A stretch of 64,000 bases of DNA from Leptospiraceae bacterium (GTDB lineage: Bacteria; Spirochaetota; Leptospiria; Leptospirales; Leptospiraceae). Below the pieces are notes generated by a model. That model had not been told where the DNA came from and did no database searches. It was given only the letters and a program-made list of their open reading frames with translations. Positions 1,612-12,572 of this stretch are shown piece after piece. The number at the start of each line of letters is the position of its first letter. Position 1 is the stretch's first letter. The stretch is from positions 1 to 64,000 of the forward strand of contig CANGZW010000002.1 in NCBI GenBank assembly GCA_947458405.1, given 5' to 3'. Made by a program: the position numbers and the translations under genes.

Positions 1612-4600
1612 TCACGATTCCTTATTCAGTAAGAATTTTTGTCTGCTTTTTCCAGCAATCCAGTAATACAATAAAGGCACTGCAAATCTACTGATCACTG
1701 TTGCGGCAATTTCTCCGAACATTAAACTCACTGCCAAACCTTGAAAAATGGGATCAAAAAGCATTATAAAGCTTCCCACAACAACTGCCGCAGCGGTCAG
1801 TAGCATTGGTCTGAATCGTACTACGCCTGCATTTACAACAGCTTCTTTTAAGTCTGTCCCTGATTCAACTTCCTGTTCTATGAAGTCTACGAGGATGATG
1901 GAGTTTCTTACTATAATCCCAGCCCCTGCGATAAATCCAATCATTGACGTTGCCGTGAAGTACGCTCCCATTAGATAATGCCCGGGTAGAATTCCGATGA
2001 GAGAAATTGGAATTGGTGCCATGATGATAAGTGGCACAAGATAGCTTTTAAACCAACCCAATACCAAAATATAAATTAGAATCATTACTATCCCAAATGC
2101 TCCTCCTAAATCACGAAATACTTCATAGGTAATAAACCATTCTCCATCCCACTTTACTACAGGAGAGGAGGTATTCCAGGGAACCTCTGCGGTTTGAGTA
2201 GGATATTTAATCAATGGAGAAAGTTTCATTATACCATAAACTGGTGCTTCTTCTTCTCCTGATAATTCAGAAAACACGTAAGACACTGGTTTTAAATTCT
2301 TTCTGTATAGTACATAGTTTGGAAGAATTTCTTTATCTTTCATAACGGATTCTATGGGAACTATTCCGGTTTCAAAAGATGCTATGGTGTGATTTTTAAA
2401 AGGAGTATCACTTGAACGAAATTTATTTTCAACTGAAAGATCTATTGGAATTTCTTCTGGATGGATGGCTTCTGCGAGAGAAATTATACTAGATTCTGAA
2501 AAGATTAAATGACCTGTCATACCAACATATTGAGATCTTGTCCCTAGCTCTCCTCCTATGCTATGATTATATTTATAAATTAATCTTTCTCTACCCTCTC
2601 TCATCGAAGAATCTAAGTCACATACACTCTTTTCATTTTTAAAAATAGTATATATTTCATTTGCTATCTTATCTCTAGTTTTTCTGTCGGGACCATAAAC
2701 TTCAGCAACCATTGTAGCCAATACGGGTGGACCTGGAGGAATTTCTAAGATTTTTGTAGTACTATTTGTTTTCATTGAAAAATCATTAATTATACTCCTG
2801 ACTTCTTCAATTATTTGATGACTGGATTTCTTTCTATCTCCTTTGTCTGATAAAACAATTTGAAGATCATTCATGAATTCTTTATTTCTTAAAAATGTGT
2901 GTTTTACCATTCCCGAAAAAGAGTAGGGAGCGGCTTCCCCTGAAAAAATCTGTATTTTTTTTATATCTTGATTTTTTAATAGAGAATCACTTAAAGTTTT
3001 TGTCATCTCAATAGCTTTGTCGCGAGGCGTGTATGTCGGATAATCAATAAGAATCTGGAATTCATTTTTATTATCAAAGGGAAGCATTTTTACTTTAACA
3101 GCTTTAAAGTAGATTAAAGACCCTGCAGATAGTAATAAAAGCACAGAAACAAATCCAAATGCAAACGTCGATGTTTTCACTGTTAACATATGATTTACAA
3201 AAGAAACATAGAGTCTATCTAAAAGTGAAAGTTTAGGTTCTTCTGAATGACTTGTATCACTTTTTTCAGAATGATGGTGTTTTAATAATCGAACAGAAGC
3301 CCATGGAGTTACAATGAATGCTACAAAAAGAGAAAGAATCATTGCGAGACTCGCTCCAACAGGGATGGGTTTCATATAAGGTCCCATCAAACCTCTTACA
3401 AATGCCATGGGTAGAATAGCTCCAATTACAGTAAAAGTTGCAAGGATAGTTGGGTTTCCTACTTCGGAAACTGCATTAATAGTCGCTTTCACTATTCCTA
3501 GGGATGGATCGAGTGAAAGATGTCGTTCTATGTTTTCAACAACTACAATTGCATCATCTACTAGAATTCCAATTGAAAATATCAGAGCAAATAATGTAAC
3601 TCGATTTAATGTATAACCCATAAAGTAATAGATTGCGAGAGTCAAGGCTAAAGTAACTGGTATTGCAATTGATACAACGATTGCGGCTCTAATTCCCATC
3701 CAAATTGCTATTAAAATTGTAACACTGAATGTTGCTATGAGTAAGTGTTCAATGAGTTCATGTGATTTTTCGTCAGCAGTTAAGCCATAGTTTCTTACAA
3801 TAGAGAGTTTTATTTCAGGAGGTAATTCTTTTTTAAATAACTCAGCTCTTTCTAAGAGTTGTTGAGCAAGTATTACAACATTGGTACCTTTTCTTTTAGA
3901 AAAGACAATTGAAACAGCAGCTCTAGCTGTACTGCCTAGTTCTTTATCATAAAGTAAAGATAGACGTTTTCTTTCTTCGGGACCTTCTTCAATTTTAGCA
4001 ACATCTTTGATTCTTACTACTCTTCCACCTCTTTGAGCAATAGGTATTTTCCCTACATCCTCTATGCTTCTAACTCTTCCGCCGATTTCAATGTCATAAA
4101 TATGCGTATCACTCCAATTTTTTCCTGCTGGAAGAAAGGAATCATTTGCTTTTAAATTTGAGGCTATATCTAAAAGATTTACCCCATTATTTTTGCTCAA
4201 CTCTGGATTTACTATTACACGAATGGTTTTTTTCCGACCTCCCAATAGTTCCACCTTAGAGAGATCGGGTGTGCTTGATAGTTCTCTGGCTAGAGGTGCG
4301 ACTTGCGTTCTTAGTTCATAATCATCTAAACTATCAGAGCTAAATGTTAGAGTCAAAAAAGGAACATCATCAATTGAAAAAGACTTAATTTGGGGTGGAA
4401 GCATAATTTCTCCAACTTCCGATTTGACTTCCATTAATTTGTGATGCACCTTTAATAATGATGGTTCAATTGGTTCTCCCACTTTAAATCGAACAGTTAT
4501 TAAGGCTCCGTGTGGCTGGCTCATTGAATAAACATATTCAACTCCATCTAATCCCCAGATCCCTCTCTCTACAGGTTCGGTAACTTTTCTTTCTACCTCT

Positions 4601-4803
4601 TCGGGTGATAACCCTGGAGCAGGAATTTGTATGTCAATCATGGGAACGGAAATTTGTGGTTCTTCTTCTTTCGGAGTAAGTATTACTGAAAATATTCCTA
4701 GTAGAATACTAACAATAGCTATTACGGGAGTTAATTGAGAATTGATAAAGGTTTCTGCTAAAATTCCTGCAAATCCTTTCTTATATATTTTTGTAGTACT
4801 CAT
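1612..4803 (-). CDS. RND-family efflux transporter permease (AcrB/HAE-like)
   Basis: A full-length 1063-residue RND pump with the usual plan: TM1, a large periplasmic loop, TM2-6, a second periplasmic loop, TM8-12. TM4 carries the proton-relay pair in GILVDDAIVVVEN. TM10 has GIIVRNSIILVDF, with Arg where AcrB has its relay Lys. It would export a substrate out of the inner membrane or periplasm using the proton gradient. It overlaps the upstream TolC gene by 4 bases, so the two are translationally coupled, and a DUF2892 gene leads the operon. No periplasmic adaptor (membrane-fusion protein) gene is present, although RND pumps normally need one. The substrate is unknown; the divergent SQR gene suggests a link to sulfur chemistry. 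Confidence 0.93.
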   Translation of the reverse strand: MSTTKIYKKGFAGILAETFINSQLTPVIAIVSILLGIFSVILTPKEEEPQISVPMIDIQIPAPGLSPEEVERKVTEPVERGIWGLDGVEYVYSMSQPHGALITVRFKVGEPIEPSLLKVHHKLMEVKSEVGEIMLPPQIKSFSIDDVPFLTLTFSSDSLDDYELRTQVAPLARELSSTPDLSKVELLGGRKKTIRVIVNPELSKNNGVNLLDIASNLKANDSFLPAGKNWSDTHIYDIEIGGRVRSIEDVGKIPIAQRGGRVVRIKDVAKIEEGPEERKRLSLLYDKELGSTARAAVSIVFSKRKGTNVVILAQQLLERAELFKKELPPEIKLSIVRNYGLTADEKSHELIEHLLIATFSVTILIAIWMGIRAAIVVSIAIPVTLALTLAIYYFMGYTLNRVTLFALIFSIGILVDDAIVVVENIERHLSLDPSLGIVKATINAVSEVGNPTILATFTVIGAILPMAFVRGLMGPYMKPIPVGASLAMILSLFVAFIVTPWASVRLLKHHHSEKSDTSHSEEPKLSLLDRLYVSFVNHMLTVKTSTFAFGFVSVLLLLSAGSLIYFKAVKVKMLPFDNKNEFQILIDYPTYTPRDKAIEMTKTLSDSLLKNQDIKKIQIFSGEAAPYSFSGMVKHTFLRNKEFMNDLQIVLSDKGDRKKSSHQIIEEVRSIINDFSMKTNSTTKILEIPPGPPVLATMVAEVYGPDRKTRDKIANEIYTIFKNEKSVCDLDSSMREGRERLIYKYNHSIGGELGTRSQYVGMTGHLIFSESSIISLAEAIHPEEIPIDLSVENKFRSSDTPFKNHTIASFETGIVPIESVMKDKEILPNYVLYRKNLKPVSYVFSELSGEEEAPVYGIMKLSPLIKYPTQTAEVPWNTSSPVVKWDGEWFITYEVFRDLGGAFGIVMILIYILVLGWFKSYLVPLIIMAPIPISLIGILPGHYLMGAYFTATSMIGFIAGAGIIVRNSIILVDFIEQEVESGTDLKEAVVNAGVVRFRPMLLTAAAVVVGSFIMLFDPIFQGLAVSLMFGEIAATVISRFAVPLLYYWIAGKSRQKFLLNKES

Positions 4804-6242
4804 TTTAAGTCTCCAGAAGTTGATTCATTAAATAATGTAAGTTCAGACCTAATTCGAAGATATTCTGTTTCGGCTTCAGCTTTTTTTCGATAGAATTCTG
4901 TAACTTGGTTTAATACTTCTGCTAGTTGAAGAATATTGATTGATCCAGTGGAAAATAGATTTTGAGAATTTATTATCTGTTCTTCTTGTAGTTTTTGTGT
5001 TTCACTCATAAGAATGATATTTTCTTTTAAGGATTTCTCCATCCTTGACAAAGAATTATACTTAGCTTTGTCCTTCATTTTCATATCTTCAACTCTTTCT
5101 TTAATTGCTAAACTATTCTGTTTCGCTTCCTCGATTATACCAATATCTGTTGGAGAAAGTAGATTCATTTGAACATATAAACCAGCATTATAAGATGTTG
5201 CTGTATCTCTCGAACCATTATAGGCATAAGCCTCACCAAACATTCCAACTTTTGGAAGATGCCTTGCCTTTTCAGCTTCAATTTGTATTTCAGAACCTTC
5301 TGCATAAGATTTATATGCTTTCGTAATTTTTAACTCTGGATTTATTTCATCAGAATTTTGAATTTTTAAATATTTATCAGAAAAAAGTATCACATTATCA
5401 TCTTTTGGAACCCAATTATTAATTTTTTTATCAGTGATAATTTCTAAATTCTCTTTAAGAGACATTATTTGAGATCGAACGCTATCTTTATTACCCTTGA
5501 TATAGTTTTGGATACTTTTGATACCTAAATAACCTGAGTATCCAATGGGACTCCCTTTAAGCTGAAATCTTTTTTGTAGTCCATCTACTATTTTATTTAA
5601 CTCAATCATCTTTTTTAAATAATTATTCATAACTAATATACTTGAGTAAGTGAAAACTGCTGAAAAGTATTCACTTTGTATTACGAATTCTCTTTCTTTC
5701 TTCTTCCCTTCCAGTTTCTTTTCTGTCATTTTAGAAATATTTACTTTCGAACCACCTTCGTATAGAGGGAGATCAACGCCGATTGTACCACGAGAAAATG
5801 TGTTTGATCCGGGATTATTCAGAGTGTCGGGTGCAAATAAGTTTAGTGTATTATAATTAGGAGTTGTATATATATTGTTACTTGTATCAACATAATTAGA
5901 AAGCCTACTTCTTGTACTTTTTGTTGAGAAGTCTCCATCTAAAGCAGATCTTTGGCCTAGATTGGAAAAGAAATTCATTGCTGGGTCGTTTGTATTATAA
6001 CTTCTTACGTCAGAATATACTTTTGGAATCCAATGTTTACTAGCTCTATTCTTTGCAATCTCAGCAGATTTTTCTTCATGGGAACCTGCTTTCAGTGTAT
6101 GGGAATTTTCGATAACCAAATTCCATATTTCTGAAAATTCTATAACCGAACCTTTAAATACTTCTTCCTCCTTATCAGAATAAACTGGATTAATAAGAAG
6201 TAAGGAACCAAATAATAAAAATATAAACTTCATAGAGAACAT
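4800..6242 (-). CDS. TolC-family outer-membrane efflux channel
   Basis: A 480-residue protein with an N-terminal signal peptide (MKFIFLLFGSLLLINPVYS) and two long alpha-helical repeat regions typical of outer-membrane efflux proteins, for example the segment ending ILQLAEVLNQVTEFYRKKAE. It would form the outer-membrane exit duct for the RND pump encoded just downstream (4-base overlap). The start at 6242 gives MFSMKF; an ATG three codons on at 6233 is equally possible, and both overlap the end of the upstream DUF2892 gene. The tight coupling suggests equal expression of all three genes. The N-terminal third has a long Ser/Asn/Thr-rich stretch around residues 90-150, which may be a surface-exposed loop. 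Confidence 0.88.
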   Translation of the reverse strand: MFSMKFIFLLFGSLLLINPVYSDKEEEVFKGSVIEFSEIWNLVIENSHTLKAGSHEEKSAEIAKNRASKHWIPKVYSDVRSYNTNDPAMNFFSNLGQRSALDGDFSTKSTRSRLSNYVDTSNNIYTTPNYNTLNLFAPDTLNNPGSNTFSRGTIGVDLPLYEGGSKVNISKMTEKKLEGKKKEREFVIQSEYFSAVFTYSSILVMNNYLKKMIELNKIVDGLQKRFQLKGSPIGYSGYLGIKSIQNYIKGNKDSVRSQIMSLKENLEIITDKKINNWVPKDDNVILFSDKYLKIQNSDEINPELKITKAYKSYAEGSEIQIEAEKARHLPKVGMFGEAYAYNGSRDTATSYNAGLYVQMNLLSPTDIGIIEEAKQNSLAIKERVEDMKMKDKAKYNSLSRMEKSLKENIILMSETQKLQEEQIINSQNLFSTGSINILQLAEVLNQVTEFYRKKAEAETEYLRIRSELTLFNESTSGDLK

Positions 6243-6448
6243 TCTTTTTGAGATTTGATACCTAATTTAAAAAGTATAGTACCCATAATACAGAACCCTG
6301 TAATTGAATAAATGGTTAAGTTAATACTTACTAATAAGCATAAAATTAAAAAGTAGGGAGAAAATAAGAAAGATAGTGTTAACCCTATGAGATTAAATAA
6401 TCCCGCCATTAGTAAAATGATTCTTTCTCTATGCCAAAATATTTCCAT
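6230..6448 (-). CDS. DUF2892 (YgaP-type) small membrane protein
   Basis: A 72-residue protein with two hydrophobic segments and the signature GFCIMGTILFKLGIK near the C-terminus. This matches the DUF2892 transmembrane domain found alone or behind rhodanese domains, as in YgaP. These domains recur next to sulfur-handling genes, and here the divergent neighbour is SQR. It is the first gene of the operon with TolC and the RND pump and overlaps TolC by 13 bases (4 bases if TolC starts at 6233). The biochemical role of the free-standing domain is not settled. A part in sulfide or thiocyanate movement, or in anchoring a sulfurtransferase, is inference. Confidence 0.75.
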   Translation of the reverse strand: MEIFWHRERIILLMAGLFNLIGLTLSFLFSPYFLILCLLVSINLTIYSITGFCIMGTILFKLGIKSQKECSL

Positions 6449-6470
6449 AATAATCTCCTTTAAATATAAT

Positions 6471-6486
6471 ATACCATACGGGGTAT
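6471..6486. promoter_or_regulatory. operator-like site 1, ATACC-N6-GGTAT, in the divergent RND/SQR promoter region
   Basis: ATACC ATACGG GGTAT at 6471-6486 is the core of a longer AT-rich inverted repeat: TTTAAATATAATATACC on the left and GGTATATTATATTTAAA on the right. It sits about 22 bases before the DUF2892 start. The GC-tract core flanked by A/T resembles operators of CsoR/CstR-type repressors, known for copper and persulfide sensing. No such repressor gene is in the window. Confidence 0.6.
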
Positions 6487-6585
6487 ATTATATTTAAATG
6501 TCAAGAGGAAAAATAAAAATAGTAAAAAAATCCTTAAAAAACGATAAATAGACTAATTTTTTCCTAAAAAGAAATAATCATATAC

Positions 6586-6601
6586 ATACTATATATGGTA
6601 T
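6586..6601. promoter_or_regulatory. operator-like site 2, ATACT-N6-GGTAT, upstream of SQR
   Basis: ATACT ATATAT GGTAT has the same 5-6-5 geometry as the site at 6471-6486 and lies 30 bases before the SQR start. One half-site differs by one base. Two sites of the same shape facing the two divergent operons suggest a shared regulator. Confidence 0.5.
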
Positions 6602-6631
6602 TGTATATTTAATGAAATGGGAGATAAATAG

Positions 6632-8089
6632 ATGGCAAGAATAGTGATATTAGGGGCAGGAATTGCGGGAAATACAGCGGCGATGTATTCTAGGTCATTC
6701 TCCAAAAAAGAGGATGAGATCATTGTAATATCTCCAAATAGTAAATGGAATTGGATACCATCAAATATTTGGGTAGGAGTAGGTTTGATGTCACCGGAAG
6801 ATGTTACTTTTGAATTAGCACCGATATATCAAAAAATGGGTATCACATATAAACAGGCAAAAGCAGTCAGTATTCACCCCGAAGGAAGTACTTCAAATGA
6901 CAGAGGGTATGTGACTATTGAATATACTAACTCTTTAAAAAGTGGAACAGTGGAAGAAGTATCCTATGATTTTTTAATCAATGCGACAGGTCCTAAATTG
7001 AATTTTGGGGCAACAGAAGGATTGGGTCCAGAAAAAAATAGTTATTCAGTATGTACTTATGGTCATGCAGTTGAGGCAAACAATGCTTTACAAGAATCTA
7101 TTCAAAGAATGAAAAAAGGGGAACGACAAAAGATAGTTATTGGAACTGGTCATGGAAACTGTACCTGTCAAGGGGCGGCGTTTGAATATATCTTTAATGT
7201 TGAATACATTCTTAAACATAATGGAGTGAGAGATAAAGCAGATATAACTTGGATTTCAAATGAATATGAGTTAGGCGATTTTGGAATTGGAGGAATGCAT
7301 ATTAAACGCGGAGGCTATATCACACATTCTAAAATATTTACAGAATCTCTCTTTGTCGAAAGAGGGTTAAATTGGATTACACGAGCTCATGTTCAAAAGG
7401 TAGAAAAAGATAAGTTGTTCTATGAGAATTTAGATGGGGAAGAAAAGTCAGTTGATTTTGATTTTACTATGTTATTACCTCCATTTTCGGGAGTTGGATT
7501 AAAGGCTTTCAATAAAAATAAGGAAGAAATTACCTCAAATTTATTTGCTCCCAATTCTTTTATGAAAGTAGATGCTGATTATACAGTGAAGTCGTACGAA
7601 GAATGGAAGTCTTCCGATTGGCCTACTTACTATCAAAATCAAAGTTATAAAAATATTTTTGCTGTCGGGATAGCATTTGCTCCTCCCCATGCAATTTCAA
7701 AACCTATGAAAAGTCCCAAAGGAACACCAATTTTCCCTACCCCTCCTAGAACTGGTATGCCATCAGGAGTCATGGGAAGAGAAGTAGCAAGAAGTATTAC
7801 AGATATGATAAGAACAGGATCAGATAAACCAACAAGATCTGCTTCTATGTCCTCTATGGGAGCGGCTTGTATTGCATCAGCAGGAGCTGGTTTATTTGAT
7901 GGGACAGCAGTATCTATGACAATGTTTCCAATTATTCCCGATTATGATAAGTATCCAACGTATGGTAGGGATATCAACTATACATTTGGAGAAATTGGAC
8001 TTGCAGGTCACTGGATAAAACATATTTTACATTATGTTTTTATGTACAAAGCAAAAGGAAATCCCTTTTGGAAGATGATACCAGAATAA
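6632..8089 (+). CDS. sqr: sulfide:quinone oxidoreductase-like flavoprotein
   Basis: A 485-residue FAD protein starting with the Rossmann motif ILGAGIAGNTAA. It carries cysteines at about 141 (SVCTYGHA), 177/179 (GHGNCTCQGAAFEY) and 413 (GAACIASAG), matching the places of the three redox cysteines of sulfide:quinone oxidoreductases. The enzyme oxidises sulfide to zero-valent sulfur or polysulfide at the membrane and passes electrons to quinone. The last 30 residues hold hydrophobic and aromatic groups suited to membrane attachment. A GGGAG ribosome site precedes the ATG. It is divergent from the DUF2892-TolC-RND operon and followed after 10 bases by a 48-residue gene. Flavocytochrome c sulfide dehydrogenase is a less likely alternative because no cytochrome gene is near. 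Confidence 0.85.
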   Translation: MARIVILGAGIAGNTAAMYSRSFSKKEDEIIVISPNSKWNWIPSNIWVGVGLMSPEDVTFELAPIYQKMGITYKQAKAVSIHPEGSTSNDRGYVTIEYTNSLKSGTVEEVSYDFLINATGPKLNFGATEGLGPEKNSYSVCTYGHAVEANNALQESIQRMKKGERQKIVIGTGHGNCTCQGAAFEYIFNVEYILKHNGVRDKADITWISNEYELGDFGIGGMHIKRGGYITHSKIFTESLFVERGLNWITRAHVQKVEKDKLFYENLDGEEKSVDFDFTMLLPPFSGVGLKAFNKNKEEITSNLFAPNSFMKVDADYTVKSYEEWKSSDWPTYYQNQSYKNIFAVGIAFAPPHAISKPMKSPKGTPIFPTPPRTGMPSGVMGREVARSITDMIRTGSDKPTRSASMSSMGAACIASAGAGLFDGTAVSMTMFPIIPDYDKYPTYGRDINYTFGEIGLAGHWIKHILHYVFMYKAKGNPFWKMIPE

Positions 8090-8099
8090 GGAGAAAGAA

Positions 8100-8246
8100 A
8101 TGAAAGTAAGACAATCCTATGAAAAAGATTTTTATGCACCAATGCCAACAGAATTTACAATAAATATGAGAACTAATATTTTTTGGCAATTCTATAGATT
8201 TTTAGTTATTAATTATAAGATGATTCGTATGACACGATTTCATTAG
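8100..8246 (+). CDS. 48-residue protein following SQR
   Basis: Starts at ATG 8100 behind a strong AGGAG site and ends at TAG 8244-8246, giving 48 residues (MKVRQSYEKDFYAPMPTEF to RMTRFH). It is rich in aromatic and basic residues, with one amphipathic hydrophobic run (NIFWQFYRFLVINYKMI) that could lie on a membrane. Spacing of 10 bases from sqr and the terminator that follows make a two-gene operon. No known family is recognised. It may be a small partner that helps dock SQR at the membrane, but that is inference from position and composition. Confidence 0.7.
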   Translation: MKVRQSYEKDFYAPMPTEFTINMRTNIFWQFYRFLVINYKMIRMTRFH

Positions 8247-8821: not shown

Positions 8822-11800
8822 ATGAAATCACTTATCAAATTTTTTATGAGCCGAAGCATGTTGGTAAATGTTATTTTAGTATTTATCGCCATGCTTTCTT
8901 TAAAAGCCATCACTTCTATGAATAGAAATAAATTTCCAGAAGTTGACCTGGCAAAAATGATAGTTACCACCAAATATCCCGGAGCCTCTCCCAAGGATGT
9001 GGAGCAAAATGTAACACGATTAATTGAAGATGAGCTCAAAAGTGTTACAGGAATTGATAAGTATACCTCTGTGTCTAGTGAAAATGTATCTGTTGTTACC
9101 GTTGAAATTGATATAAATTATCCCGATACAGATGAAGTGAAGGATAATATCCGTAGAGCCGTCGATAGAGTCGCATCTTTACCATCAGAAGTTACAGAAA
9201 GACCAAATGTAAGGGATTTAAAATCTTCAGAACTACCAATTTTATCAATTGGTATCTCAGGAGATGCTGATTATGCAGAAATTAGAAGAATTGCTAAAAT
9301 TATAGAAAAAGATCTCAAGCAAATATCAGGTGTCTCCTATGTTGATAAATATTCATTTAGAGATAAAGAATTTGATGTTAACTTAGACCCTGAAAAATTA
9401 AAAAAGTACTACATAGCTTTAAATGATGTTTTACTAGCATTAGGAAAACGTAATATTAGAGCTACAGGTGGAAACTTAGAATCTTATAATACTCAAAGAA
9501 ATATTCTCACACTTTCTCAATTTGATACAATCGAGGATGTGGGGGAAGTGATAGTTCGATCGGAGTTTGGGGGTGGTTTAGTCAAAATAAGTGACCTTGG
9601 TATAGTAAAGGAAGGATATAAAGATGAAAAAATGAGGACAATTTTTAATGGTAAGCGTGGAATCATGCTAGTTATTAAAAAATCCTCAAACGCAGATATC
9701 ATTCGAGTTGTAAATAAAATCAAAGAATATCTCAAACAAAAACAAGAAACAATTCCTTCTGGCATTAACTTAATTGCAGTAAATGATGAAACTAGGGTAG
9801 TTGCAAATCGATTAGATGTTGTGGTATCAAATGCTTTCATTGGATTTTTTCTTGTAATACTAATTTTAATACTATTTTTAGATTTTAAGTCTTCTTTTTT
9901 GGTTGCTTTAAGTATTCCCATCTCATTTGCGATGACATTTGTCTTAATGAAATTTGTAGGTGCTGATATAAACTCGATTTCACTTGCTGCAATGATTATT
10001 GCATTGGGAATGATTGTAGATCAGTCAATTGTCGTGACAGAGAACTCTTTGTACTACTCTACCCAAGGCTACAATAAAATTGAGTCTATTTTAGAAGGAA
10101 CAATGGAAGTAGTGCTTCCTGTATTTGCTTCTGTTCTCACTACTGTACTATCTTTTGCTCCAATGTTTGTTATGACCGGTATTATGGGAAAATTTGTTTC
10201 TGTAATACCTACTGTGGTTATTGCATCCCTCATTGGGTCTCTATTTAATTCATGGTTTATTCTTCCCAATCATTTACGTCATATTATGAAGGAAAAGCAA
10301 GAAGTTACTAAGGAAAAATGGCAGGATAAGTTTTTTCAAAAAATATCAATTCCTTATGAAAAAGCTATGAGAAAGATATTAGAATATAAGTATATTACAA
10401 TATTACTGACTATTTTTCTTTTAGTTTTTACTCTGTATTGGGGAAAGACTAAGATTTTGTTTAATATATTTCCTCCTGACGGAGCAGATACTTTTTTTGT
10501 TTATGTAGAAATGAAAGATGATGTAACATTTGATGCAACAGAAGAAGTTATAAAACAAATAGAGATTGAAGTAAAGAAACTTCCGAAAGAAGAATTAGCA
10601 TTTTACATAGCAAAGATAGGCACTAAAAATTCGCAAGAACTTGCTGTTCCAGTAGGTGGAGAAAAGCATTTAGCGTATCTACAAGTATCATTGGTACCAT
10701 CTTCCAAAAGGAAAAGAGAGGCTGGTTTGATTTTAGAAGAATTGCGCGGTTACGTAACACAAAATGTTAAAGGAGCCAAAGAATTAACTTTTGACTTACA
10801 AAAACCTGGCCCACCCGCAGGGAAGTCAATAGAGTTACATGTGCACTCTGACAACGACGAAGCCAGACTCAAATTTGTAAATAACATATCTGAAGATTTA
10901 AAGAACTATCCAGGAGTTTCTGATATTTCTTCTAACTATAAAATTGGCAGGGAAGAATTTAAGTTAGATATAGATTATAAGTCATTGGCAACTACAGGTT
11001 TAACAGTTCAAGATGTTGCTAGTACATTACGTATTGCATTTGATGGAGTAAGATCAACATCTATTGTAAGACAAAATGAGGAAATTGAAGTACGGGTTAG
11101 ATTCCCAGAAACATCTAGACGTGATATTACAAATGTCCTCAATTTAGAAGTACGAAATAGAGAAGGAAGACTTGTTCCGATAAGTTCGTTTGCAAAACTC
11201 TCAACTATCAATGCAGATTCATCTATATTTCATACGAATGGTGATGTTACAACAACCATTAATGCTAGAACAGAAGTTACTCTGAATCCTCAAAAAGTAA
11301 TTGATGAGTTAATGCTAAAATATGCGCCTCTCTTAAAAACAAACCAAGATGTAAGAATATCTTATGGTGGAGAAGCTGAAAAGTCAAAAGAATCCGTGAA
11401 ATCATTACTAGTTGCATTTATCGGAGGAATTGTAGCTATATTTTTGGTTATCGCACTCTTGTTTAATTCGCTGTCCCAACCAATTATGGTTCTACTTGCA
11501 ATACCTTTTGGACTCATAGGTGTGATATGGGCATTTTATTTTCATGGAAGGCCTTTTTCTTTTATGGGATTAATTGGAGTGATTGGACTCAGTGGAATTG
11601 TTGTAAATAATTCGATCATGATGGTAGAGTTTATCAATAAAATCGTTCAAGATAATGTCACCGATGATAGTTTTAATCAGAATAATTTGATCGATCAAAT
11701 TATTACTGGTGCAAGTAGGAGACTTCGCCCAATAATTATAACAACGGGTACTACAGTACTAGGATTATTACCAACAGCATATGGAGTAGGTGGATCGGAT

Positions 11801-11998
11801 GCATTTATTGAACCGATGGTTCTTGCTCTTGCTTATGGGATTATTGCATCCACTCAAATTACTCTTATCTTGATTCCAGCATTTTACTTAGCAAATTTAG
11901 AAGGAATGTATTTTATTAAAAAAGTATTTAGATTTATAACTAGGATTCCAACTTTTGTAATTAAGTCAAAAAAAACAGAGTCAACTATAAATGGATGA
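8822..11998 (+). CDS. RND-family efflux transporter permease, second copy
   Basis: A 1058-residue RND permease with 12 expected membrane helices and two large periplasmic loops. TM4 reads GMIVDQSIVVTEN: the first relay Asp is kept but the second is Gln. TM10 reads GIVVNNSIMMVEF, with Asn where AcrB has Lys. These changes recur in RND subfamilies far from AcrB, so transport may use a different proton path. It is followed by a TetR regulator with 8 bases of overlap. No adaptor or TolC gene is adjacent, so it must borrow partners from elsewhere. It is not a recent duplicate of the pump at 1612-4803, because their motifs differ. Confidence 0.92.
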   Translation: MKSLIKFFMSRSMLVNVILVFIAMLSLKAITSMNRNKFPEVDLAKMIVTTKYPGASPKDVEQNVTRLIEDELKSVTGIDKYTSVSSENVSVVTVEIDINYPDTDEVKDNIRRAVDRVASLPSEVTERPNVRDLKSSELPILSIGISGDADYAEIRRIAKIIEKDLKQISGVSYVDKYSFRDKEFDVNLDPEKLKKYYIALNDVLLALGKRNIRATGGNLESYNTQRNILTLSQFDTIEDVGEVIVRSEFGGGLVKISDLGIVKEGYKDEKMRTIFNGKRGIMLVIKKSSNADIIRVVNKIKEYLKQKQETIPSGINLIAVNDETRVVANRLDVVVSNAFIGFFLVILILILFLDFKSSFLVALSIPISFAMTFVLMKFVGADINSISLAAMIIALGMIVDQSIVVTENSLYYSTQGYNKIESILEGTMEVVLPVFASVLTTVLSFAPMFVMTGIMGKFVSVIPTVVIASLIGSLFNSWFILPNHLRHIMKEKQEVTKEKWQDKFFQKISIPYEKAMRKILEYKYITILLTIFLLVFTLYWGKTKILFNIFPPDGADTFFVYVEMKDDVTFDATEEVIKQIEIEVKKLPKEELAFYIAKIGTKNSQELAVPVGGEKHLAYLQVSLVPSSKRKREAGLILEELRGYVTQNVKGAKELTFDLQKPGPPAGKSIELHVHSDNDEARLKFVNNISEDLKNYPGVSDISSNYKIGREEFKLDIDYKSLATTGLTVQDVASTLRIAFDGVRSTSIVRQNEEIEVRVRFPETSRRDITNVLNLEVRNREGRLVPISSFAKLSTINADSSIFHTNGDVTTTINARTEVTLNPQKVIDELMLKYAPLLKTNQDVRISYGGEAEKSKESVKSLLVAFIGGIVAIFLVIALLFNSLSQPIMVLLAIPFGLIGVIWAFYFHGRPFSFMGLIGVIGLSGIVVNNSIMMVEFINKIVQDNVTDDSFNQNNLIDQIITGASRRLRPIIITTGTTVLGLLPTAYGVGGSDAFIEPMVLALAYGIIASTQITLILIPAFYLANLEGMYFIKKVFRFITRIPTFVIKSKKTESTING

Positions 11999-12572
11999 GT
12001 CAAAATCAATTTCTGTGATACTAGAAGTAGCCGAAAGGATATTTTTTCAATTTGGCTACACTAATTCTAGTATGGAAGAAATAGCTAATGAATGTGGAAT
12101 GTCTAAGAAAACAATTTACAAGCACTTTGCGAGTAAAGAAGAAGTCCTTATGGAATGTGTGAAAAGAAAGATAGATATTAATTCAAAAAGAATAACTGAA
12201 ATCATATATTCAGAAGATATTAAATTCCATGATAAGATAGAAAAAATAATATTAGCTACTAGTGAAAATTTTAAAGAAATTGATATTTCGTTTCTTTATG
12301 ATATTAAAAAGTCATGCAAAGAGGCTTGGAAACTAATTGAAAATCATAAATTAAATCATATACCAAAAAATTTTACTGATTTAATCACAGATGGGATAAA
12401 AAAGGGCTATGTAAAAAAAGATGTGAAGGCAGAGATAGTTGCTTATATTTATTTATCTGCAATGTTAAATCTTTTAGATTCTAGTTTTTTTAGTAATACA
12501 TCAAATTATAGTATTTTAGAAATCATAAAAGAAATAGACAATACGATTTTTTATGGTGTTATAAAGAGATAA
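11991..12572 (+). CDS. TetR/AcrR-family transcriptional regulator
   Basis: A 193-residue protein with an N-terminal TetR helix-turn-helix (residues about 8-55): [20 protein letters not shown] followed by [17 protein letters not shown]. The C-terminal ligand domain is family-variable. It overlaps the RND pump gene by 8 bases and is cotranscribed with it. It therefore probably represses the pump through the inverted repeat over the promoter at 8769-8787. The ligand is unknown. Confidence 0.9.

Follow-up and report, generated by a model that had tools for sequence, protein, structure and literature searches.

A DUF2892-TolC-RND efflux operon and a gene for a sulfide:quinone oxidoreductase (SQR) are arranged divergently in the window, by which we mean the whole 64-kb stretch of DNA that was analysed, and a palindromic site lies before the start of each. 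The best reading of these sites, judging from genome comparison, is that they belong to a sulfane-sulfur regulon in which the RND pump would be a conserved target. We hold it to be quite probable that one CsoR-family repressor, encoded on contig C188 of the same genome (G000) and repressing its own gene, controls both divergent units through these two operators and is relieved by sulfane sulfur. A conserved sulfur-stress regulon governed by a CsoR-family repressor would then include an RND efflux pump, and what the pump exports during sulfide stress becomes a directly testable question.

Two operators between the divergent units

An earlier, sequence-only reading had described two sites of identical 5-6-5 geometry here, and both are present (Table 1). 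It had also given them a GC-tract core, which holds for operator 1; operator 2 has none. The extent of operator 1 exceeds that description, as the site is surrounded by a long inverted repeat with perfect arms. Operator 1 lies 23 bp upstream of the DUF2892 start codon (ATG at 6448, minus strand), directly before the ribosome-binding region, and operator 2 ends 30 bp before that of SQR (ATG at 6632, plus strand). Most of operator 2 is contained in the spacer of a candidate SQR promoter; note that sigma-70-like promoter matches were no commoner than chance (3 found, 2.0 expected in shuffles).

Table 1. Features of the operator region and of the two divergent units in the window
Feature	Position	Strand	Description
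Operator 1	6471..6486	.	ATACC-ATACGG-GGTAT; best matrix match in window
Operator 2	6586..6601	.	ATACT-ATATAT-GGTAT; second-best matrix match in window
Inverted repeat around operator 1	6459..6498	.	40 bp, perfect 17-bp arms, 6-bp centre
Candidate sigma-70-like SQR promoter	6581..6609	+	TATACA-17-TATATT; weak consensus match
SQR-like flavoprotein	6632..8089	+	485 aa; PF07992
Small ORF	8100..8246	+	48 aa, no family assigned; just 3' of SQR
DUF2892 (YgaP-like transmembrane) protein	6230..6448	-	72 aa; PF11127; first gene of operon
TolC-family outer-membrane protein	4800..6242	-	480 aa; PF02321
RND permease	1612..4803	-	1063 aa; PF00873; last gene of operon

Both sites recur elsewhere. The 16-mer of operator 1 is found again on contig C139 of the window genome, before a second DUF2892 gene that is followed by a PspE-like rhodanese gene. 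In the promoter alignment, the reverse complement of operator 2, ATACCATATATAGTAT, is identical to the csoR-like promoter site of two relatives (G016 and G019). The sequence-only reading had likened the sites to CsoR/CstR operators. The likeness is borne out at the level of the CsoR family, of which the genome has one gene with a site in its own promoter, and the prediction that operators 1 and 2 are CsoR-family-type operators is supported.

A single CsoR-family gene

A whole-genome profile search found exactly one gene of the CsoR family (PF02583) in the window genome. It lies on contig C188, its product scores 58.7 bits against a curated cut-off of 22.8, and the motif stands just upstream, at C188:1823. 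A gene of the CsoR family, one of the kinds which the sequence-only reading had suggested looking for, does exist, with the motif in its own promoter. The comparison set comprised 61 genomes, the window genome and 60 relatives; 39 of them have PF02583, with 46 genes in total. In a tree of these proteins, 29 divergent rows separate from 17 canonical ones, with support of 100/100.

Every divergent row (29/29) keeps the two cysteines of positions W and Z, and since all 17 canonical rows keep them too, the pair is necessary but not specific. The metal-ligand histidine is kept in 20 of the 29 divergent rows, the window genome's protein included, and in 12 of the 17 canonical rows; in the other nine divergent rows it is replaced by Y or S, with both cysteines retained. 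Loss of this histidine is a trait of CstR, and neither the window genome's protein nor 20/29 of the divergent clade shows it. The invariant C-H-C of copper CsoR is not seen across the divergent clade either, the histidine being gone in 9/29. The best PDB matches of the C188 protein are InrS (E 1.4e-6), then CsoR and FrmR, ahead of entries 7mq1 (E 0.015) and 7mq3 (0.04), which we take to be CstR. By this ranking CstR is not the closest relative; the tree of 46 proteins included no CstR rows.

Motif statistics

Is the match to the motif beyond chance? A genome-wide count of the 16-bp pattern, as proposed in the sequence-only reading, gives a divided answer. In the 3.94-Mb genome the loose form ATACY-N6-GGTAT has 50 strand-wise matches, each palindrome being counted twice, against 25 in the reversed control. 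This is about twofold over the control, so the loose form is weak by itself and stronger tests are needed. The stricter forms are enriched on the same strand-wise count, with 8 matches against 1 for ATACC-N5-GGGTAT and 8 against 0 for TATACC-N6-GGTATA. In 11 chosen genomes the latter form has 22 occurrences, and its reversed control has none. Genomes with the divergent repressor have 109 sites strand-wise against 29 in the control, while those without it have 55 against 71 (Fisher p 3e-9).

A 24-bp motif matrix was derived from a manual selection of 42 regions upstream of csoR-like, pump, rhodanese/DUF2892 and thioredoxin genes; of the 29 csoR-like genes of the divergent group, 17 are represented there. 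The motif lies above the 99% shuffle level in 35 of these regions, on which the matrix itself was fitted, and is absent from the other 7. As a hold-out, 11 of the remaining 12 divergent csoR-like genes were scanned, G017 being left out because its contig ends there. At least 8 bits were reached by 7/11 of them, compared with 0/17 canonical csoR genes; the other 4 of the 11 fell below this level.

For the window itself, the matrix was trained without any site sharing either operator 16-mer. Operators 1 (28.9 bits) and 2 (21.2 bits) are then the top two matches of the 64 kb, ahead of a third with 11.2 bits. Not one of 3000 shuffles of its region was as good as operator 2. No site of at least 21.3 bits appeared in 10 Mb of Markov simulation with a near-identical matrix, and real coding DNA does yield one 20.9-bit match (C68:3534). 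Operator 2 had at first view been taken for chance, as it has no GGG half; the promoter alignment and the matrix overturned that view.

The pump operon

The reading frames of the DUF2892, TolC and RND genes overlap end to start, which is operon-like. A search of the 61 genomes found orthologs of the pump with at least 60% identity in 8 besides the window genome, the copy of G005 being split in two pieces. Seven of the eight also have the divergent repressor (G002, G005, G006, G015, G016, G019 and G027), and a site above 20 bits stands before the pump operon in all seven. The eighth, G014, has a canonical csoR only, and no site was found before its pump ortholog. Moreover, in four of the seven (G015, G016, G019 and G027) the repressor and pump genes are neighbours in tail-to-tail orientation. 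In G027 a single locus holds the repressor, RND, TolC, the operator, DUF2892, CoADR-rhodanese and rhodanese. Inspection of the ORF lists of six loci (L180, L181, L183, L185, L186 and L187) revealed no adaptor gene. From site conservation and gene order, it is supported that the pump operon would be part of a conserved regulon of persulfide-handling genes.

Homologs of the pump also occur on plasmids of other phyla (32-42% identity). From 54 matched records 13 were examined, of which 11 are annotated and two are without annotation. DUF2892 and/or rhodanese genes lie alongside in 8 of the 11 annotated contexts and ArsR genes in 7. These ArsR genes, and the TetR gene at 11991-12572 downstream in the window, might suggest that a regulator of another kind uses the motif and that the CsoR-like gene is a bystander. 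We consider such control by TetR or ArsR very improbable. Across genomes, presence of the motif follows that of the divergent CsoR-like gene, whose promoter contains it, and a CsoR-like protein has been described that binds exactly this pattern (PMC7533328).

Two side observations concern other RND genes. Genes of a second RND branch, whose proteins share about 32% identity with the pump of the window, are closely preceded by a near-perfect palindrome with a GC tract (L188:3857 in G017 and L189:6449 in G043). Within the window, 8822-12572 holds a second RND permease gene and then the overlapping TetR gene, with no operator of at least 8 bits near.

The SQR gene

Among PDB sulfide-quinone reductases, the best match of the SQR is 3hyv (E 2.2e-44, phmmer). 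The small ORF just 3' of the gene is probably co-transcribed with it. Orthologs of this SQR occur in few of the related genomes, and among the genomes searched the gene adjoins the pump only in this window.

Does SQR belong to the regulon as firmly as the pump does? As a predicted target it is less secure. Sites precede orthologous SQR genes in G028 (16.9 bits) and G017 (13.8), and another type of SQR in G004 (19.9) and G015 (14.9). In the matrix scan, from which G024 and G026 were left out because of contig ends, the SQR orthologs of G004, G014, G030 and G035 have no good site, and that of G018 has only a 17-bp variant. The G004 ortholog is the closest one (74% identical), and it is apparently frame-broken. 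The other SQR type has no site in G027 and G034. The idea that SQR genes of this family generally carry the operator was rejected, for a score of 8 bits was attained at none of 80 SQR loci in other phyla.

One alternative is that only operator 1 is genuine and governs the pump operon; operator 2 would be a chance match in AT-rich DNA, and SQR would be under some other control. The orthologs without a site, the 80 loci of other phyla, the missing G-tract, the position of SQR beside the pump in this genome only, and the occurrence of a 20.9-bit match within a coding region all speak for it. On the other hand, operator 2 is second-best in the window by 10 bits under a matrix without its 16-mer, it is better than all its shuffles, it is identical to the csoR-promoter site of two relatives, and SQR genes of four other genomes have sites. 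We regard a chance origin of operator 2 as unlikely. SQR joins the regulon repeatedly, not regularly, and in this genome the case rests on operator 2. The sequence-only reading had tied sulfide oxidation and efflux to one sulfur-sensing repressor. This is partly supported. Its pump arm is backed by a conserved regulon and by sites in 7/7 other genomes with the divergent repressor; the SQR arm is weaker, for the closest ortholog has no site, though SQRs in four other genomes carry one.

In protein identity, this SQR is 69-72% identical to its top matches from Ignavibacteria, Calditrichota and Thiorhodospira, and 57-64% to most orthologs of its own class (74% to that of G004). These identities hint that the gene may have been horizontally transferred.

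Sulfur or copper?

The motif alone cannot separate sulfur from copper, because copper CsoR and RicR share it. The repressor might accordingly be a copper sensor with true CsoR function, and the regulon a copper response including thiol enzymes and an efflux pump. Several points agree with this. The proteins with C-H-C at the CsoR ligand positions (20/29, that of the window genome among them) could also bind Cu(I); ATACCn6GGTAT is common to copper CsoR and RicR (PMC7533328); and the only copper P-type ATPase gene of the genome (C68) starts about 470 bp downstream of the 20.9-bit site. However, that site falls within a fixH-like coding frame, the histidine is Y or S in nine divergent rows while both cysteines stay, canonical csoR genes of the relatives lack such a motif (0/17 at 8 bits), and the predicted targets encode rhodanese, CoADR-rhodanese, DUF2892, thioredoxin and SQR proteins. 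Sulfur is favoured over copper by these targets and by the apparently dispensable histidine, and a copper sensor seems improbable to us. The site at C68:3534 (L013/L247, G000) may be either chance or a copper link.

That the signal is sulfane sulfur is likely by analogy with ScCsoR, CstR and TTHA1953. ScCsoR of Streptomyces coelicolor is a sulfane-sulfur sensor with the site ATACCn6GGTAT, and polysulfide releases it via two cysteines (PMC7533328). It resembles the present case in being a CsoR-like repressor with this site and two cysteines, and in having rhodanese and itself as targets. The difference is that its targets PDO, TauE and rhodanese are described in one cluster (PMC7533328), while here the predicted targets are dispersed, with the RND pump, DUF2892, thioredoxin and CoADR-rhodanese among them and SQR as a probable further one; the targets inspected included no PDO. 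CstR of Staphylococcus and Enterococcus is a dithiol CsoR-family repressor of rhodaneses and of a CoA-persulfide reductase with a rhodanese domain (PMC9405070), and YrkD is a CstR-like protein (PMC9918477). By sites and gene order, genes of the rhodanese and persulfide-reductase types would be targets here as well, but the present protein is weakly similar to 7mq1/7mq3, most members of its clade keep the CsoR histidine, and an RND pump is added as predicted target.

TTHA1953 of Thermus is likewise CsoR-like, with two cysteines, distant sulfur genes under its control and TAC/GTA repeats in its site (PMC10318464). Its site has a TAC-N4-GTA centre, compared with TAC-N8-GTA here, its targets are Sox genes, and NaHS failed to release it (PMC10318464). 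RND pumps near ArsR-type sulfane-sulfur repressors have already been described (PMC12423496), and Azospira suillum has an H2S-induced SQR-RND operon, deletion of which left H2S oxidation unchanged (PMC5358917). What these systems have in common with ours is that sulfide-responsive genes include those for RND pumps and SQR; their regulator is of the ArsR family or is not named, whereas here the regulator is apparently a CsoR-family protein. We found no published account of the present regulon in the literature covered, which was mostly without subscription papers.

Proposed mechanism

In unstressed cells, the reduced C188 repressor would sit on operator 1, in the promoter/ribosome-binding region of DUF2892-TolC-RND, and also on operator 2 in the SQR promoter, so that both divergent units are off; it would repress its own gene as well. 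When sulfane sulfur (persulfide or polysulfide) accumulates, the two invariant cysteines would be modified and the repressor would leave the DNA. SQR, the pump, the DUF2892-rhodanese pair and thioredoxin would then be made together. The sequences themselves show the sites, the one regulator gene with its own site, the conserved regulon and the invariant pair of cysteines. The C188 protein is presumed to bind these sites, with sulfane sulfur as the signal, and the pump may clear the cell of a toxic form of sulfur or of some by-product that sulfide stress generates.

A more general scenario is tentative and, on balance, rather doubtful. Divergent CsoR-family dithiol repressors might run a dispersed sulfane-sulfur regulon. 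Its most constant large target would be a dedicated RND pump, accompanied by DUF2892 and TolC and lacking an adjacent adaptor gene. This pump might expel persulfide/polysulfide or another sulfide-derived toxin; it would be paired with SQR in this genome, and similar pumps in other phyla would keep the same partners under ArsR regulators.

Possible further regulon members

If this reading holds, CsoR-type sulfane-sulfur control would extend to a new lineage, and the motif would predict further members. The strict pattern ATACCMWWMRGGGTAT occurs at six exact places in the window genome, namely operator 1 and sites on C139, C3, C188, C58 and C118. The C3 site precedes a thioredoxin gene, and the C118 site a small membrane protein gene followed by a fatty-acid-hydroxylase-like gene. 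In relatives the motif stands before csoR-like, rhodanese, DUF2892, thioredoxin, CoADR-rhodanese (G001, G005, G006 and G007) and pump genes. Judging by the neighbours of the 22 TATACC-N6-GGTATA places, 16 point towards genes of the csoR-like, pump, rhodanese, thioredoxin, CoADR-rhodanese or SQR kinds and 2 towards that of a shared membrane protein of 72-73 aa, while 4 are without a clear sulfur gene. The CoADR-rhodanese, small-membrane-protein and methyltransferase targets are a biased sample, because they were found beside pattern matches.

The 72-73 aa membrane protein is encoded at 3658-3879 of L011 (G000 C118) and at 1238-1456 of L261 (G004 C161), on the minus strand in both, with the shared motif P.PH..EKI.M...G.L...IDIFDL.FH. 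The G000 copy has no Pfam match. A strong operator lies about 45-55 bp upstream in both genomes, and this protein is likely a new regulon member. On C58 (L010, G000) a 24.9-bit site at 4007 stands just before a lipoprotein-like gene with no known sulfur role. In G006, a class I methyltransferase gene (L198, C80, 630-1351) is preceded by a 30.2-bit matrix match.
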